Below, in pieces: positions 4,264 to 28,342 of a stretch of 64,000 nucleotides of DNA. Within the stretch, counting starts at the first letter, position 1, and each line of letters begins with the position of its first letter. The translations under genes and the position numbers were made by a program. The notes beneath the pieces are model-generated. The model searched no databases, was not told where the DNA came from, and saw nothing but the letters and a program-made list of their open reading frames with translations. Source of the DNA: Halodesulfovibrio sp. MK-HDV (GTDB taxonomy: Bacteria > Desulfobacterota > Desulfovibrionia > Desulfovibrionales > Desulfovibrionaceae); assembly GCF_009914765.1 (NCBI RefSeq), contig NZ_WYDS01000006.1:62001-126000 (forward strand), read 5' to 3'.

Positions 4264-5154
4264 TTGATTGAAAGAGTTTTACAGCGAGTTGCGCCAAATC
4301 TGACAGATAATCAAAAAGGCGTGTGCTTAGCACTTATTTCTACGGCAGTGATTTTGTGTGTTGCCATCGTGGTACGCCTTGTCAGTGATCGTATCCATGT
4401 GTTTCAGATTGTATTTTTCAGGCAACTTGTCCTTATTACGTTATTGCTTCCCGCAATATGTCGCAATGCAAAGACATTCCGGCATTCCAAAAATCTACTT
4501 CCGCATGCTTTTCGTGTTGTCGGAGCATTTAGTGGGCTTTGCTTAGGGTTCCTTACAGTAAGCAACCTCCCTTTAGCAGAAGCAACGGCACTAAGCTTTA
4601 CCAACATATTGTTTGTGGCTGTGCTTTCAACTGTAGTGCTGGGTGAGTACGTCGGCTGGAGCAGGCGGTTGACTATCGCCATAGGATTCACCGGTGTTGT
4701 ACTAGTTGTACAGCCTTCATTTGATAATCTGACGCTGACCTACACGCTGACAGGACTTGCCGGTGCCTTTGGTGCCTCAATTGCTGCCATATCTATCAAA
4801 TGGATTTCACGTACAGAGCCAGTATTGTCACTGATGGTGTATCAAGCGGTGTTTGTTGGTCTGCTCGCCTTTATACCAACCTTGTTTGTGTGGCAGTGCC
4901 CCACAATGGAAGAACTGCTTTTGCTGCTCCTAATTGGTGGGTTAGCATCTCTAGGACAATGGATCTCTATGACAGCTCTTAGTCTTGGTGAAGCTAATAT
5001 TATTATCAACGTGCAGTACATAAAAATTGTGTACTCAATGGTGTTGGGCTATCTGATCTTTGCTGAAACACCCAACAACTTAGCCATACTTGGTGCAGCG
5101 GTTATTCTTTGCAGCGGCATAATTCCCGTGGTTCGCAACAGAATGAAAAAGTAG
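4264..5154 (+). CDS. EamA/DMT-family inner-membrane transporter
   Basis: 296 residues, about ten hydrophobic helices in two repeated halves, as usual for drug/metabolite (EamA) exporters, whose length is typically 290-310. The PLAEATALSF region after helix 3-4 and the second-half GEANIIINVQYIKIVYSMVLGY segment match the family. The start is TTG, chosen because GGGAGAGAG lies just upstream. The substrate cannot be told. It is a single gene followed by its own terminator, and could be either ordinary host or accessory. Confidence 0.8.
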   Translation: MIERVLQRVAPNLTDNQKGVCLALISTAVILCVAIVVRLVSDRIHVFQIVFFRQLVLITLLLPAICRNAKTFRHSKNLLPHAFRVVGAFSGLCLGFLTVSNLPLAEATALSFTNILFVAVLSTVVLGEYVGWSRRLTIAIGFTGVVLVVQPSFDNLTLTYTLTGLAGAFGASIAAISIKWISRTEPVLSLMVYQAVFVGLLAFIPTLFVWQCPTMEELLLLLLIGGLASLGQWISMTALSLGEANIIINVQYIKIVYSMVLGYLIFAETPNNLAILGAAVILCSGIIPVVRNRMKK

Positions 5155-5253: not shown

Positions 5254-5268
5254 ATGTGCAATTGTTTT

Positions 5269-5328
5269 GCCTCCGGCGGGTAAGGGGACTTCCCCTTACA
5301 TCCCCGCAAGGGGGGCGCCCCCTTGACC
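5269..5328. repeat. REP-like GC-rich element, copy 1
   Basis: A GC-rich block containing CCTCCGGCGGG, then imperfect hairpins AAGGGGACTTCCCCTT and AAGGGGGCGCCCCCTT. The same block occurs inverted at 7965-8023 inside a coding region. This looks like a dispersed intergenic repeat (REP/BIME type) of the host. Confidence 0.6.
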
Positions 5329-5393
5329 GCGAGGTTGTACTCCCCAATTTTCGAGGTTGAATTCCCTGTTCGCGCGGTTGTACTCCCTGTTTA
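5328..5393. repeat. Three imperfect tandem repeats of about 22 bases
   Basis: Units share the pattern CG-GGTTG-A-TCCC: CGCGAGGTTGTACTCCCC, TCGAGGTTGAATTCCC and CGCGCGGTTGTACTCCC. They directly follow the REP-like block. The rest of 5394-5652 shows a G run at 5401 but no gene. Confidence 0.5.
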
Positions 5394-6780: not shown

Positions 6781-7227
6781 ATGAAAGATATGGGAAATGA
6801 GCACTGCTTCCGAGTTTAGAGCAGGTGTCAGCAGTGGTTATTCAAAAAATATACAGGTCTGGCGTTGTGGAGCCATTACTGAAAATAAGCGGAAGAACTT
6901 AATACAAATAGAAAGGTTACAAAAAGAGTGAAGGACAGGACACAGTTACTGATCAGTAATAAAAATCTATTTAGCATGTTCACCTCGCGAGTGACCTTAA
7001 TGATTCATGCGTAAAAGTTCAATATCAGATTGATAAGAAAAATAGATTTTTCTGTACGGTTGCTGTGTTGGGGGTGTTAAAAAAGCAAATGCACCTTCGC
7101 GGCGGTCATAAGGGGGTGATGCGATGGTACTAGCATGGCGTGGCATATCTTACTGAAAGGCTTTCGTTAGGGTATCTTGTTGATTGGAAGACCTTTTCTT
7201 CTGCAATTCAACAAGATTGGGCTATGT
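6781..7227. other. Gene-free interval before remnant B
   Basis: About 450 bases without a supportable gene. It holds a perfect 14-base palindrome TTACTGATCAGTAA at 6946-6959, which could be an operator. Nothing else is recognised. Confidence 0.5.
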
Positions 7228-8562
7228 ATGGGAAAAAGACGGTATCGAAAGATTTCTGTGTGTATTTGGAACGATGCTAAATTTTTGGCGTTGTCGCATG
7301 ATGCTAAGCTCGTGGTGTTTTTTATGCTTACGCATCAGGATTTGACGCAGCTTGGGGCCTTGCGGGCAACTATTCCGGGGCTTGCGTGTGAACTGGGGAT
7401 GAAACTGGAAACCTTTGGCAAAGCTTTTGAGGAAGTGTTGCACCAAGGGATTGTGGAGTATGACGAAAAGCTGTTGTTCTGGTTTCCTAACTTTTTGAAG
7501 CATAACCTTCCTGAAAGCCCGAATGTGGTGAAAAGCTGGCATTACGGATACCGCCAGTTGCCGGAAACACCACTACGTTCGGAGATCCTCTTGGGCGTAA
7601 GGGAACTGGTAGCAACACTTACACAAGGCTTTCGGGAAGCTTTCACATGTACTTTTGCGGAAGAACTTGCGGAAACTTGTCCTAATCAGAGAGCAGAGAA
7701 CAGGGAACAGGAGAAAGAAAAGAGAGTCGGTGACTCTCCGGCTCCCTCGTCACAACCCGCTTCACCCAATGCTTCCCCTGATACTTATTCACCTCCCAAA
7801 CAGAATGTTCAGTCACTGAGCTCCTTTGCTGTGAAACCTAAAAACTTGTCTAACCCTTTTACTCCAATGAAAATTCACCCAACGTCACTAACGGAGCTAC
7901 CCAATGAAACCTCCCCCCAAAACTTCCATGAATCCTCCCTAACTCCCGATAACCATAATCGCAGTCGAGAGGGCGTCCCTCTCGCGGGGATGCAAGGGGA
8001 AGCCCCCTTGCCCGCCGGAGGCAATAAATCTGCCGCAGGCAAAATAAGTGCCGTAGGCAATAAGCCAACCACAGACGATAAAAACATCGCAGGCGATATA
8101 AACACGATAGACAACAAAACAACCTCAGACATAAAAAATACCGAAGAAAATCCCTCTGCTTCAGGTGCTAAAACCTCACCCCCAAATGTGCTGGAACCCC
8201 GCATTCCATGCCCATATGAAAGGATTCGGGAAGCTTACAATGTGACGTGTACGAGGCTGCCAAAATGCAGAGAAATTACACCGTTAAGAAAGGCTCGGCT
8301 AAAATCTGTATGGAACTCTGGTTTAGACCGAAAAAATCTGGCATGGTGGGAACGTTATTTTGCCTTAGTGCATGAAAGCGCTTTTTTGGCAGGTGAAAAT
8401 GATCGAGGGTGGACGGCAAACTTTGACTGGATTGTGAAGCCTGCCAATATGATAAAAATAGAAGAAGGTAACTATCTGCCTAAGCAGGGGAAGCCGCAGA
8501 AGGGGGCTGGTGTTAGTGCAACGAACCGCGCTGTGTATGAATCTATGATGCAGCGGGGATAG
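7228..8562 (+). CDS. Phage replication initiator/organiser (remnant B)
   Basis: 444 residues from ATG 7228, the position matching the start of its prophage paralogue at 27347. The N-terminal 150 residues (RRYRKISVCIWND onward) form a DnaD/replisome-organiser-like winged-helix domain. The C-terminal 90 residues (WW-RYF-LV near the WTANFDWIVKP segment) match the usual end of phage replication initiators. The central linker, about residues 150-325, is much longer than in the paralogue and contains a REP-like block at 7965-8023 and seven hexapeptide repeats at 8020-8145. Both ends are intact, so the frame is preserved despite the insertions. It heads a three-gene replication cassette. Confidence 0.75.
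   Translation: MGKRRYRKISVCIWNDAKFLALSHDAKLVVFFMLTHQDLTQLGALRATIPGLACELGMKLETFGKAFEEVLHQGIVEYDEKLLFWFPNFLKHNLPESPNVVKSWHYGYRQLPETPLRSEILLGVRELVATLTQGFREAFTCTFAEELAETCPNQRAENREQEKEKRVGDSPAPSSQPASPNASPDTYSPPKQNVQSLSSFAVKPKNLSNPFTPMKIHPTSLTELPNETSPQNFHESSLTPDNHNRSREGVPLAGMQGEAPLPAGGNKSAAGKISAVGNKPTTDDKNIAGDINTIDNKTTSDIKNTEENPSASGAKTSPPNVLEPRIPCPYERIREAYNVTCTRLPKCREITPLRKARLKSVWNSGLDRKNLAWWERYFALVHESAFLAGENDRGWTANFDWIVKPANMIKIEEGNYLPKQGKPQKGAGVSATNRAVYESMMQRG
7965..8023. repeat. REP-like element, copy 2, inside a reading frame
   Basis: Reverse-complement match to 5269-5328: GAGAGGGCGTCCCTCTCG hairpin, CGGGGATGCAAGGGG, and CCCGCCGGAGGC. It is translated in frame as part of the initiator linker. 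Confidence 0.6.
8020..8145 (+). repeat. Seven 18-bp tandem repeats encoding hexapeptides
   Basis: Consecutive 18-base units begin GGCAATAAA, GGCAAAATA, GGCAATAAG, GACGATAAA, GGCGATATA, GACAACAAA and GACATAAAA. They encode G/D-N/D-K/I-x-x-x hexapeptides. The run starts exactly where the REP-like block ends. Confidence 0.75.
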
Positions 8563-10909: not shown

Positions 10910-12265
10910 ATGATGATCAAAACTCTTGAGCTTAACAACGTGGGGCCTTCCGAACATCTAGAAATAGAGTTCGGGGACAGACTCACCGTGTTTACGGGTG
11001 ATAACGGCTTGGGAAAGAGTTTTGTTCTTGATGTTGCATGGTGGATGCTCACAAAGGAGTGGGCTGGCGAGATGGCAATGCCGGAATCGCTGATTACTGC
11101 TTCCTACAATAATAGTGACCAGCCGGAGCCGGTTATTCGCGGCCAATTTGATTCCATTAATAAAATGGATGTGGTGCAGCATTATGTTTTTCAGCCTCTG
11201 GGACAGGTGTGGAGCTGTAATTCGAATGAAGACGAACGGATTATAGAAGGCAACTCCCCGAGCGATTCTATTGTGCTGTATATGAAGTATGACGGAACCG
11301 TGGCTATGTATGATCCGGTTAAAGCGCAGGCAGATGAGTTTGCACGGGCGCTTGTACAGGAACGTGCGCGGCATTATGAAAACGTGAGCATTTCTTTTAC
11401 GCAAAAGACTACCCGTATATATTCTCAAGCAGAACTTTGGAACGGTGTGCAGAAGCGCCGCAGGCAGGAGTTCAACGGTCTGATTGCAGACTGGGGCGAC
11501 TGGCAGCGTGAAGACAGCTTTGCCTATGAGTGCTTGAAGAAGGGCGTACGTCATTTATCCCCGAAGGGTGAGCCGTTTTCCATTGGCAGTTTGCGCAGGG
11601 TTAAAGCAGACGACAGCCGCAAGTTTCCTACAATCAAGTCTGAGTTCGGCAAAGAAACCCCACTCATCTATGCATCAGCAGGTATCCGCAAAATTTTATC
11701 TCTTCTTTATGCTATGACATGGGTATGGAATGAGCACATTGAGCTGTGCGAAAAGTACAACATGAAGGCAGCCTCAAAAATTGTTCTCATGATCGATGAG
11801 GTGGAAGCGCATCTGCATCCGCAATGGCAGCGAAGTATTTTGAAATCTCTCGAATCCGTCATGGGCAGCCTGCTCACAGGGTACGATGTTTCTACGCAGC
11901 TTATTTGTACTACACATTCTCCGTTGGTTCTGGCGTCCCTTGATCCTATTTTTGATGAAGAGGAAGACGCGCTCTATACTTTTGATATGAACAAAGAAAA
12001 GTGTGAAATAGAGTTGAAAAAAGAGGAATGGGTACGACGCGGATCTTCTGCAGCGTGGCTTACAAGCCCTGTTTTTGGATTAGAGACAGACTCTTCAGAA
12101 CAGCGTGAAGAAGCGATTAAAGAGGCTAGGCTGGCAGTGCGTAACCGCGTTAGCGAAGCAGAGGCCCAAGTTGTTCATCAAAAACTGGTTGCCGCGTTGC
12201 ATCAGGCCGACCCGTTCTGGTCATTCTGGCGTACCCGTGCAGAGAAACGGGGCTGGAATTTATGA
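10910..12265 (+). CDS. ptuA: Septu-like ABC/AAA-family ATPase (PtuA-like)
   Basis: 451 residues. Walker A GDNGLGKS at residues 30-37 directly follows a short N-terminal strand, as in SMC/ABC-type ATPases. Walker B lies near residue 290 (IVLMIDEVEAHLHP), and a TTHSPLVLAS segment contains the usual switch His. The gene overlaps by 4 bases (ATGA) with an HNH-type nuclease gene. ATPase plus HNH in this order is the composition of Septu (PtuA-PtuB) antiphage systems, where the ATPase assembles with the nuclease. A CGGAGAAG ribosome site precedes the ATG. The system assignment is inference from architecture; other OLD- or AAA15-type defence ATPases look similar. Confidence 0.65.
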   Translation: MMIKTLELNNVGPSEHLEIEFGDRLTVFTGDNGLGKSFVLDVAWWMLTKEWAGEMAMPESLITASYNNSDQPEPVIRGQFDSINKMDVVQHYVFQPLGQVWSCNSNEDERIIEGNSPSDSIVLYMKYDGTVAMYDPVKAQADEFARALVQERARHYENVSISFTQKTTRIYSQAELWNGVQKRRRQEFNGLIADWGDWQREDSFAYECLKKGVRHLSPKGEPFSIGSLRRVKADDSRKFPTIKSEFGKETPLIYASAGIRKILSLLYAMTWVWNEHIELCEKYNMKAASKIVLMIDEVEAHLHPQWQRSILKSLESVMGSLLTGYDVSTQLICTTHSPLVLASLDPIFDEEEDALYTFDMNKEKCEIELKKEEWVRRGSSAAWLTSPVFGLETDSSEQREEAIKEARLAVRNRVSEAEAQVVHQKLVAALHQADPFWSFWRTRAEKRGWNL

Positions 12266-12909
12266 TCCCAGTGACCCGCGCTCCGGAGCCAGGAAGTTTC
12301 AATAAAAAAGTCAGAAAGCCGGGGAGAATGTTTTTAAGGCGTCACCATGTCAAACAGGGTGATCCTCCACCTGCAAATTTCCCATGGAGAAGGTTCTGGA
12401 GTCGAGCCATACCCATGCTCCATAGAAGCTACCACGATATTTGTGCGTACCTTGGCGTCTATCTCGATCCAGATACCGACGGTTCAGGAAACCGCGAAGG
12501 CAGCGTAGAGCACTTTATTCCGAAAGCGCAGAATGCATGGCAGGCATACGAGTGGCGGAACTATCTTCTTGCGGACAGGCGCGTAAATTCCAGCCGTGGA
12601 CAGGAGACGTTGACGTGTCCGTATGATTTGGATTTCTATCCCTTTGAGCTGATGCTGGATACCGGCATGATCGCGGTTTCTGAAGAACTGACAATGGAGC
12701 AGGAAGACAAGGCTTACGAGATTTTGGATGCCTTGAGTCTGGATAAAGAAATGTACGACATAGAACGCGCAGAGTATTACGCTCGCTATAAAGATCGCAC
12801 CCGTGATGATGCCCTTACAAACGCTCAGATTGCCCGCTACGCTCCATTTATCTGGTATGAGATACGACGGCAGGGTTTTGTTGTTAATGAGAAGAAGAGG
12901 CGCAAGTAA
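12262..12909 (+). CDS. ptuB: HNH-type nuclease (PtuB-like)
   Basis: 215 residues. SVEHFIPK at 81-88 supplies the catalytic EH-F-PK motif seen in PtuB and related HNH proteins; the following AYEWRNYLLA and RVNS segments give the conserved Asn residues (about 100 and 109). The zinc-type Cys pairs common in other HNH enzymes are absent (ADRRVN stands where LAC-xxCN is usual). Translation is coupled to the ATPase by the ATGA overlap. Together the pair probably forms an anti-phage complex that cleaves nucleic acid on infection. Confidence 0.65.
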   Translation: MIPVTRAPEPGSFNKKVRKPGRMFLRRHHVKQGDPPPANFPWRRFWSRAIPMLHRSYHDICAYLGVYLDPDTDGSGNREGSVEHFIPKAQNAWQAYEWRNYLLADRRVNSSRGQETLTCPYDLDFYPFELMLDTGMIAVSEELTMEQEDKAYEILDALSLDKEMYDIERAEYYARYKDRTRDDALTNAQIARYAPFIWYEIRRQGFVVNEKKRRK

Positions 12910-27241: not shown

Positions 27242-27346
27242 CTGTACAAAAACTCAACTTGGGGGTTAAGTCCGTGCATTATGCCGCAAAGCAGCACTGT
27301 GCGCAAGAAATTAACTCGCAACGCAACAAATTTAGTGAGTAAATTC

Positions 27347-28342
27347 ATGACTAAACGGCGTTACCGTAAAATATCTGTGTGCATTTGGAATGATGCAAAG
27401 TTTATGGCCCTGTCTAACGATGCAAAGCTGATTGTTTTCTTCATGCTTACGCATCCGGATCTGACTCAGCTTGGAGCGTTACGGGCAAATGTTCCCGGTC
27501 TGGCGTGTGAGCTTGGTATGGAGTTGGAAGCCTTCACGAAAGGCTTTGAGGAAGTCTTAACGCAAGGGATTGTTAAGCACGACGGGAAGCTGCTCTTTTG
27601 GTTCCCCAACTTCTTACGGTACAACCTGCCGGAGAGTCCCAACGTGGTTAAGAGCTGGCATTATGGATACATGGAGCTGCCAGAAAGTGAGCTTCGCACA
27701 GACATACTTGTTGGCGTTAAGTCGTTGGTAGACGGACTCTCGCAAGGCTTTCGGGAAGCCTTCCTTAAAACCTTTGCGGAAGAGCTAACGCAAGCTTCCC
27801 TTAATCAGAGAACAGAGAGCAGAGAACAGAGAGAAGATAATACATACGTCAAAAGCCCTGACGAATCGGAATCCGATTCTGGTGTGCATATCGAATCCGA
27901 ACCAGAACCGATTTCTGAATCTGAAGCCGTGAAGGGTAAAACCAAGGCGCAGGAAGAAGCCGAATTTTTCGACGACGTAGCTGCAATGTACAACCGTGTG
28001 CTCGTGGATGAACAGCCGGAAGGCAGAGCATTACCGAAGCTGATTAAGCTTGATGGTAAGCGTAAGGGCATGATCCGAGCACGTATGAAGGCGGATTCTC
28101 AATTCCGCACACTCGAGGGCTGGGAAAAGTATTTCCGTCTCGTAGCATCCTGCCCGTATCTCATGGGCGAAGTGAACGAATGGACTGCACAGTTCAACTG
28201 GCTGCTGAACGTGGGCAACATGCTCAAAGTCCAAGAGGGCAATTACCTGCCGAAACAGGGCAAGGGTAATGCTAAAAAGGCAGGCTCCGTGAGTAGAAAT
28301 AATCAGGACGTGTATAAAGCTTTGATGAGCAAGGGAGCGTAG
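27347..28342 (+). CDS. Prophage replication initiator/organiser
   Basis: 331 residues from ATG 27347, where homology with the remnant B protein begins. N-terminal DnaD/replisome-organiser-like winged-helix domain (RRYRKISVCIWND, LTQLGALRANVPGLACELG). A short acidic Ser/Glu linker at about 185-225, and a C-terminal domain ending WTAQFNWLLNVGNMLK and EGNYLPKQGK. It probably binds the origin and recruits the replicative helicase. First gene of a three-gene cassette that recurs as a copy at 7228-9748. Confidence 0.75.
   Translation: MTKRRYRKISVCIWNDAKFMALSNDAKLIVFFMLTHPDLTQLGALRANVPGLACELGMELEAFTKGFEEVLTQGIVKHDGKLLFWFPNFLRYNLPESPNVVKSWHYGYMELPESELRTDILVGVKSLVDGLSQGFREAFLKTFAEELTQASLNQRTESREQREDNTYVKSPDESESDSGVHIESEPEPISESEAVKGKTKAQEEAEFFDDVAAMYNRVLVDEQPEGRALPKLIKLDGKRKGMIRARMKADSQFRTLEGWEKYFRLVASCPYLMGEVNEWTAQFNWLLNVGNMLKVQEGNYLPKQGKGNAKKAGSVSRNNQDVYKALMSKGA

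Follow-up and report, generated by a model that had tools for sequence, protein, structure and literature searches.

A REP-like palindromic element lying in frame within the linker of a prophage replication initiator of Halodesulfovibrio, with a hexapeptide array at its tail

GTAG/CGTC REPs are short palindromes, most of which are found close to the 3′ ends of genes, between ORFs that converge or run the same way, and PMC3733652 also describes a minority within ORFs, several of those being replication and repair genes; REPs inside ORFs are reported there for several species, many of them in genes of DNA synthesis and repair, and two Xanthomonas recB genes carry different REPs at about one site. 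Rickettsia palindromic elements (RPEs; Ogata et al.) are about 150 bp long, often intragenic, and sit in frame within genes whose proteins are functional, with 44 insertions in R. conorii according to PMC10969869. Furthermore, an origin of replication can lie inside the gene of its initiator, as is described for lambda and its gene O in PMC5043065.

In the 64,000-nucleotide stretch of Halodesulfovibrio sp. MK-HDV DNA analysed here (hereafter the window), a preliminary description had noticed that the linker of a replication initiator holds an inverted copy of an intergenic block followed by seven 18-bp units, all in frame, and had read this as an intergenic repeat becoming coding. Indeed, the 75 nt at 5258-5332 are 83% complementary to those at 7959-8033, and the 444-aa ORF of the initiator crosses the element and the units without a stop (Table 1). 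The locus is similar to RPEs as an in-frame palindromic insert, which is a likeness of behaviour rather than of compared sequence; unlike RPEs, the Halodesulfovibrio element has a single orthologous coding locus as opposed to 116 intergenic copies. With GTAG/CGTC REPs it shares the short palindromes, the usual site near gene 3′ ends, and the occasional presence within a replication gene, but its unit is of two hairpins and about 65 bp with no fixed tag seen, no Y1 transposase was found in the genus (PF01797, 10 genomes), and the host gene is a prophage initiator in which the insert can be traced through three species to a relic. An intergenic repeat turned coding is a known phenomenon, of which this locus is a clear example: the in-frame copy of a genomic family bears out the preliminary description, while precedents for such a change are already published (PMC3733652 and PMC10969869). 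Among the titles listed on Desulfovibrio REPs and on Halodesulfovibrio genomes or repeats, none describes this element family.

We consider it likely that a single two-hairpin REP-like element entered the interdomain linker of the prophage initiator before three Halodesulfovibrio lineages split, that the initiator came to be translated straight through the captured element, and that the GCCGNAGGC motif of the tail (Ala-x-Gly) was duplicated together with an A-rich spacer in multiple-of-three steps and drifted into the hexapeptide array. The locus offers a series for the passage from repeat to protein, which runs from an intergenic family through two intact orthologues in frame, with unequal arrays, to a decayed relic, all in one conserved gene order.

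Table 1. Positions in the window of the initiator gene, its linker, and the repeats discussed in the text
Feature	Position	Strand	Basis or remark
Intergenic element copy	5258..5339	-	3′ of the 296-aa ORF at 4264-5154; profile E 7e-15
Phage replication initiator, lambda-O-like C-terminal part and DnaD-like N-terminal part, 444 aa	7228..8562	+	PHROGs matches
Linker, predicted to be disordered, residues 155-324 of the 447-residue model	7681..8190	+	pLDDT <50 nearly throughout
Candidate iterons, ~7-bp direct repeats CAGAGAG CAGAGAA CAGGGAA CAGGAGA	7687..7714	+	opens the linker
In-frame palindromic element, two hairpins and GCCGGAGGC tail	7951..8028	+	profile E 7.6e-22
Seven 18-bp units, GNKSAA GKISAV GNKPTT DDKNIA GDINTI DNKTTS DIKNTE	8020..8145	+	codon-shuffle test

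A family of two-hairpin elements

A profile was built from 16 other copies, two of which were later found to overlap a called ORF, with both the coding copy and the copy at 5258 excluded. In loci of six Halodesulfovibrio genomes, this profile detected 131 distinct copies, namely 42 in the genome of the window (G000), 30 in G008, 24 in G002, 16 in G001, 11 in G009, and 8 in G005. The number is a lower bound, as the scan covered the fetched loci with L034-L093 left out of the count, and six of the 114 matches in a search of the genus (10 genomes, E 0.001) fell outside them (four in G007 and one each in G002 and G008). Three of the ten genomes gave no match in the latter search, and the four in G007 were all partial. 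A BLAST search of the own genome with the coding copy gave at least 38 matches including itself at E 0.001 and likewise at E 0.01, with 40 candidates scored each time. In Desulfovibrionaceae (E 1e-4), matches were found in at least 38 of 149 genomes and at least 15 of 44 genera with at most six candidates scored per genome, and those outside Halodesulfovibrio mostly correspond to part of the element. The genome-wide search for further copies, the absence of which would have refuted the claim by the preliminary description's own measure, thus returned a family; given the 42 copies in G000 and the E-value of the coding copy against the profile, a chance similarity of two G+C-rich palindromes is exceedingly improbable and was rejected.

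The consensus drawn from the profile alignment begins with TCGCAGTC, which is followed by hairpin 1, CGAGAGGG CGT CCCTCTCG or variants, and its 3′ part consists of GCGGGGATG, hairpin 2 (CAAGGGG..CCCCTTG), CCC, and a tail that reads GCCGGAGGC or GTCGGAGAC. As to which strand might fold as RNA, in stems that had been picked for best pairing, mismatches of the G.T type outnumbered those of the A.C type by 17 to 2 in hairpin 1 and by 44 to 33 in hairpin 2. Also, 247 of 288 cells were paired in hairpin 1 against a shuffled mean of 123, a covariation control that is unfair because pairing had been the basis on which the stems were chosen, and the 36 distinct arm pairs with at least six pairs were the only ones retained.

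By a home-made ORF call, 116 of the 131 copies are intergenic, and transcription of the gene next to their tail runs towards the element in 93 cases and away from it in 18, with no gene called there in 5. The family therefore consists of many palindromic copies that are mainly extragenic and usually sit near gene 3′ ends, and in this respect the wording “REP-like” of the preliminary description was apt; the strict, RAYT-associated sense was not upheld, since the Y1 transposase (PF01797, a single Pfam model) was detected in none of the ten genus genomes, with the control search being positive in 5 of 14 control genomes. By this one model, a RAYT-driven REP in the strict sense was rejected. As for the tag letters, CGTC occurs somewhere in 66 of the 117 full-length copies and GTAG in 7, and by eye CGTC lies in the loop of hairpin 1 or in a tail variant and forms no fixed tag. 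Of the 702 reading frames through these full-length copies, 612 are open.

Identity with a known Rfam RNA was also rejected: no match reached the gathering score, and the best, RF02937, scored 20.1 bits when 58.6 were required. Collections of phages and plasmids gave no match to the element at the sensitivity applied; among viral contigs, an exact 29-position pattern hit a single record, which also carries a 100% copy of the initiator gene of the window. A home-made scan of 120 nt for terminators on the tail side of the copies was positive on the expected strand in 13 of 115 and on the other strand in 5 of 115, while the far side gave 28 and 33 of 114 on the two strands, and in windows 400-520 nt away either strand gave 2 of 111. 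The surroundings of the copies are richer in terminators, but we claim no rule.

Leaving the coding pair aside, there were 42 cross-species pairs of copies with both flanks matched, which overlap one another, some loci holding several copies, and their element identity ranged from 48/68 to 63/64; the element family is thus old and resident. In G002 (C39, 41576-42231), six element matches of alternating orientation occupy ~660 bp like a composite repeat array, with three similar full-length copies on one strand and three partial copies on the opposite strand. Beside the intergenic copy of the window, positions 5328-5391 hold three 21-bp units (CGCGAGGTTGTACTCCCTGTT); GGGAGTACAACC immediately precedes the element copy of L014 and nearly so that of L022.

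The initiator gene and its captured copy

The initiator matches phrog_345 (replication initiation O-like) over residues 271-419 at E 2.9e-25, phrog_25711 at E 3.7e-24, and the DnaD-like phrog_1701 at E 8.2e-17, its N-terminal part matching DnaD-like or unnamed phage families. A tblastn comparison with O of phage HK97 aligned residues 259-419 at E 2e-6, and it is by this homology and that to phrog_345 that the protein is regarded as lambda-O-like. In the phage collection, 122 records were found, none of which covers 80% of the protein, with lambdoid O among the best. Searches of Pfam and NCBIfam returned no family for the initiator, a fold search of PDB gave no match at E 0.001 (the weak leaders including several winged-helix regulators and a replication initiator, 4pta, at E 0.27), and when PDB sequences were searched with a profile, a single weak match at E 0.61 resulted. 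The ATG at 7228 was chosen from the conserved MGK of homologues. A structure model based on 8 sequences has a mean pLDDT of 66; its confident parts are the N-domain, at about residues 9-150, and the C-domain, at about 333-418, with block means of 82-94 and 66-95, respectively, and the linker between them is predicted to be disordered.

In the 447-residue numbering of the model, which starts three residues before the ATG, the element and the array encode about residues 245-309. An RNA fold of 7959-8028 has -34.5 kcal/mol (z -2.44) with both hairpins formed. This copy is open in all six frames, and its orientation within the gene is the rarer one of the family. Flanks of at least 100 codons of one frame on both sides were found for only 2 of the 131 copies, namely this one (258 open codons before the element and 177 after) and its syntenic orthologue in G009 (233 and 152). 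Both belong to the 15 copies that overlap a called ORF; the other 13 were judged by how long the frames run in the flanking sequence (up to 1200 nt, less at contig ends) and not by the homology of each, and they look like N-terminal over-extensions or short or antisense ORFs.

In the comparison of G000 with G009, dN/dS was 0.07 for the N-domain, 0.11 for the C-domain, 0.66 for the linker before the element, and 0.75 for the element, where changes are few. Both protein domains are thus under strong purifying selection, in line with the two conserved protein ends that had been proposed; with its open frame and these domain values, the locus behaves as an in-frame insertion in a protein that would stay functional. 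The preliminary description had spoken of a remnant, a word that may fit the small locus, but the frame of the gene is open and its domains are under purifying selection. The protein is presumably made with the segment in it. Such an insertion would have been tolerated because most reading frames through the element are open and because the linker, predicted to be disordered, would allow changes in length.

The orthologues in G009 and in a third species, Halodesulfovibrio sp. N3, are syntenic, with the following genes in common. At the same place and in the same frame, the N3 gene holds a relic of the element, which gave 40 matches in 61 ungapped positions, whereas the best of 5000 linker codon shuffles gave 33, and which scored 14.0 bits (E 0.00047) against the profile among 16 homologous gene records, some of them the same gene twice. 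In these records, profile matches at E ≤10 were strong in G000 and G009 and did not exceed 1.6 bits in the homologues of G005, G007, and G004, both paralogues, an uncultured Desulfovibrio, and five viral records; two further homologues of the family gave no profile match to the element. The linker comparison that had been suggested therefore places the element in G000 and G009, a relic in N3, and nothing above that level in the other homologues; homologues that lack the element are open frames encoding 327-382 residues as against 463 here. A single insertion would account for all three species, with the second hairpin and the array being largely lost in N3.

The pace of change within the element calls for another explanation to be weighed, namely that the site was hit more than once or that the coding copy was repeatedly overwritten by gene conversion. 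While the drift of a tolerated insert predicts faster change, pS between G000 and G009 was 0.15 in the element (21 codons) as compared with 0.55 and 0.60 in the domains around it (Fisher test on rounded counts, p 0.004), which would mean that the DNA of the element is either constrained or refreshed from other copies. Also, the best other match of each coding copy is a non-coding copy in another genome; the two coding copies agree with each other at 57 of 66 positions, whereas each has a closer non-coding copy, at 62 and 64 of 66, so that conversion or repeated insertion has to be taken into account. On the other hand, the orientation, the frame, and an alignable flank (PDxxNRSRE) are common to G000 and G009, and the N3 relic sits in the same place and is unlike the full-length copies of its own genome. 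The other two flank-matched pairs between G000 and G009 are identical at 64/72 and at 62/66 (the G000 member of the latter overlaps the start of a called ORF), and as these are as conserved as the coding pair (63/75) or more so, the coding copy changes at about the slow pace of its family, which reflects either constraint on the DNA or exchange between copies. We regard repeated insertion or conversion as improbable.

It is, in our view, highly improbable that the translated segment gained a function of its own, for example in helicase loading or DNA contact, and was selected as a peptide: PLAGMQGxxPLPxG is recognisable in G000 and G009 and PVAGM...LPA in N3, but the dN/dS of the element is like that of the preceding linker, no structure is predicted for the segment, and homologues manage without it. 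The segment probably has no role at the protein level.

Just 5′ of the start codon, positions 7174-7217 of the window hold an inverted repeat, ATCTTGTTG...CAACAAGAT, and the orthologue of G009 shows a similar one. At 10910-12909, the window carries a PtuA/PtuB pair of the Septu defence system (PADLOC E 1.9e-125 and 1.4e-45), homologues of which lie near the initiator in G009 and N3 too.

The hexapeptide array

The seven 18-bp units resemble one another more than codon shuffles do; their mean pairwise identity was 0.603 in comparison with 0.355 in codon shuffles, none of 20,000 shuffles being as high, and the same held for units 4-7 alone (0 of 20,000), the phase of the array having been set by eye from the sequence before the shuffle test. 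TRF reports just 2.8 copies of the 18-bp unit because the later units have decayed. The array differs in length between species: G000 has 7 units, while by eye G009 has about 3 and N3 about 1.

The order of events that had been proposed, insertion followed by repeat expansion, holds in part. Particular to the initiator gene are the spacing of 18 bp and the later units, but the motif that founded the array is the element's own tail. Indeed, a further tail motif, G[CT]CGNAG[AG]C, is found within 140 nt after 38 of the 131 copies (17 of the 42 in G000), and within 60 nt it lies downstream of 23 of the 131 and upstream of only one; since the motif also follows many other copies, the array would have begun as the tail of the element. 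Two or more motifs are listed for 33 other copies, and of their 42 spacings 9 are divisible by three and 18 measure 11, whereas the spacings in the G000 gene are 18 and 18; that of the strict motif in G009 is 30 (by eye 15 and 15, then 18). Our reading is that the element came with its tail and that only frame-keeping spacings and duplications survived, which suggests the repeat's own tail motif, rather than a fresh event, as the seed of a peptide array.

A candidate origin in the linker

The linker opens with a tract of ~7-bp direct repeats, in which a periodicity of 7 nt goes beyond the constraint of the peptide (p 0.002, with codons redrawn from the codon use of the window). Such a tract opens the linker in 7 of 9 homologues tested and exceeds the peptide constraint in 6 of these 7; the p values were 0.0000-0.0047 in five other genes and 0.076 in the seventh. 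The remaining two homologues have a 6-bp repeat that is largely explained by the peptide EQEQ (p 0.41 and 0.04). These values are uncorrected, lags 6 and 7 having been tried on nine related genes after the repeat was noticed by eye. In G002_par and the viral record L165, CAGAGAR is replaced by CATAGAR/CATATAA, with the same change throughout the four units, as would be expected of candidate iterons that follow their initiator.

In lambda, the stretch of O that holds the iterons lies between its DNA-binding part and its C-terminal part. The present locus is reminiscent of the lambda origin in that a lambda-O-like initiator carries repeats within its own gene; unlike the lambda iterons, which are 19-bp inverted-repeat units, those here are candidate 7-bp direct repeats known from sequence alone. 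We thus propose the tract only as a candidate phage origin inside the initiator gene, and it points to a testable origin within this initiator family.

This candidate bears on a further explanation of the insert, namely that the element was kept for its DNA and not for its peptide, the linker holding the phage origin as in lambda O (PMC5043065) and the palindromes and A-rich 18-bp units being drawn into that origin for initiator binding, strand opening, or gyrase action. The tract itself and the concerted change of its units would be consistent with this idea, and so would the low synonymous change in the element and a perfect 9-bp hairpin in a new register that the N3 relic holds (L064, 6575-6595) despite its decayed element sequence. 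The 7-bp tract is, however, also present in homologues without the element, so the element is not needed for the tract, and no such tract is seen by eye in the more distant relatives L168, L169, and L180. Moreover, changing slowly seems to be a trait of the whole family, and N3 is largely without the second hairpin and the array. A role as DNA is therefore an unlikely reason for the retention of the insert, and that the captured element is now a working part of an origin inside the initiator's own gene seems decidedly unlikely. If that were true, a dispersed bacterial repeat would have given both linker codons and origin DNA, the same bases being read as protein and bound as origin.

A second initiator, an element-free paralogue, lies at 27338-28342 of the window, and one IMG/VR record yielded both L163, which is 100% identical to the first initiator, and L164. 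CAGAGAR-type 7-bp direct repeats, again exceeding the constraint of the peptide and again candidate origin iterons, are found in this second initiator as well, at 27806-27837, where its linker starts.
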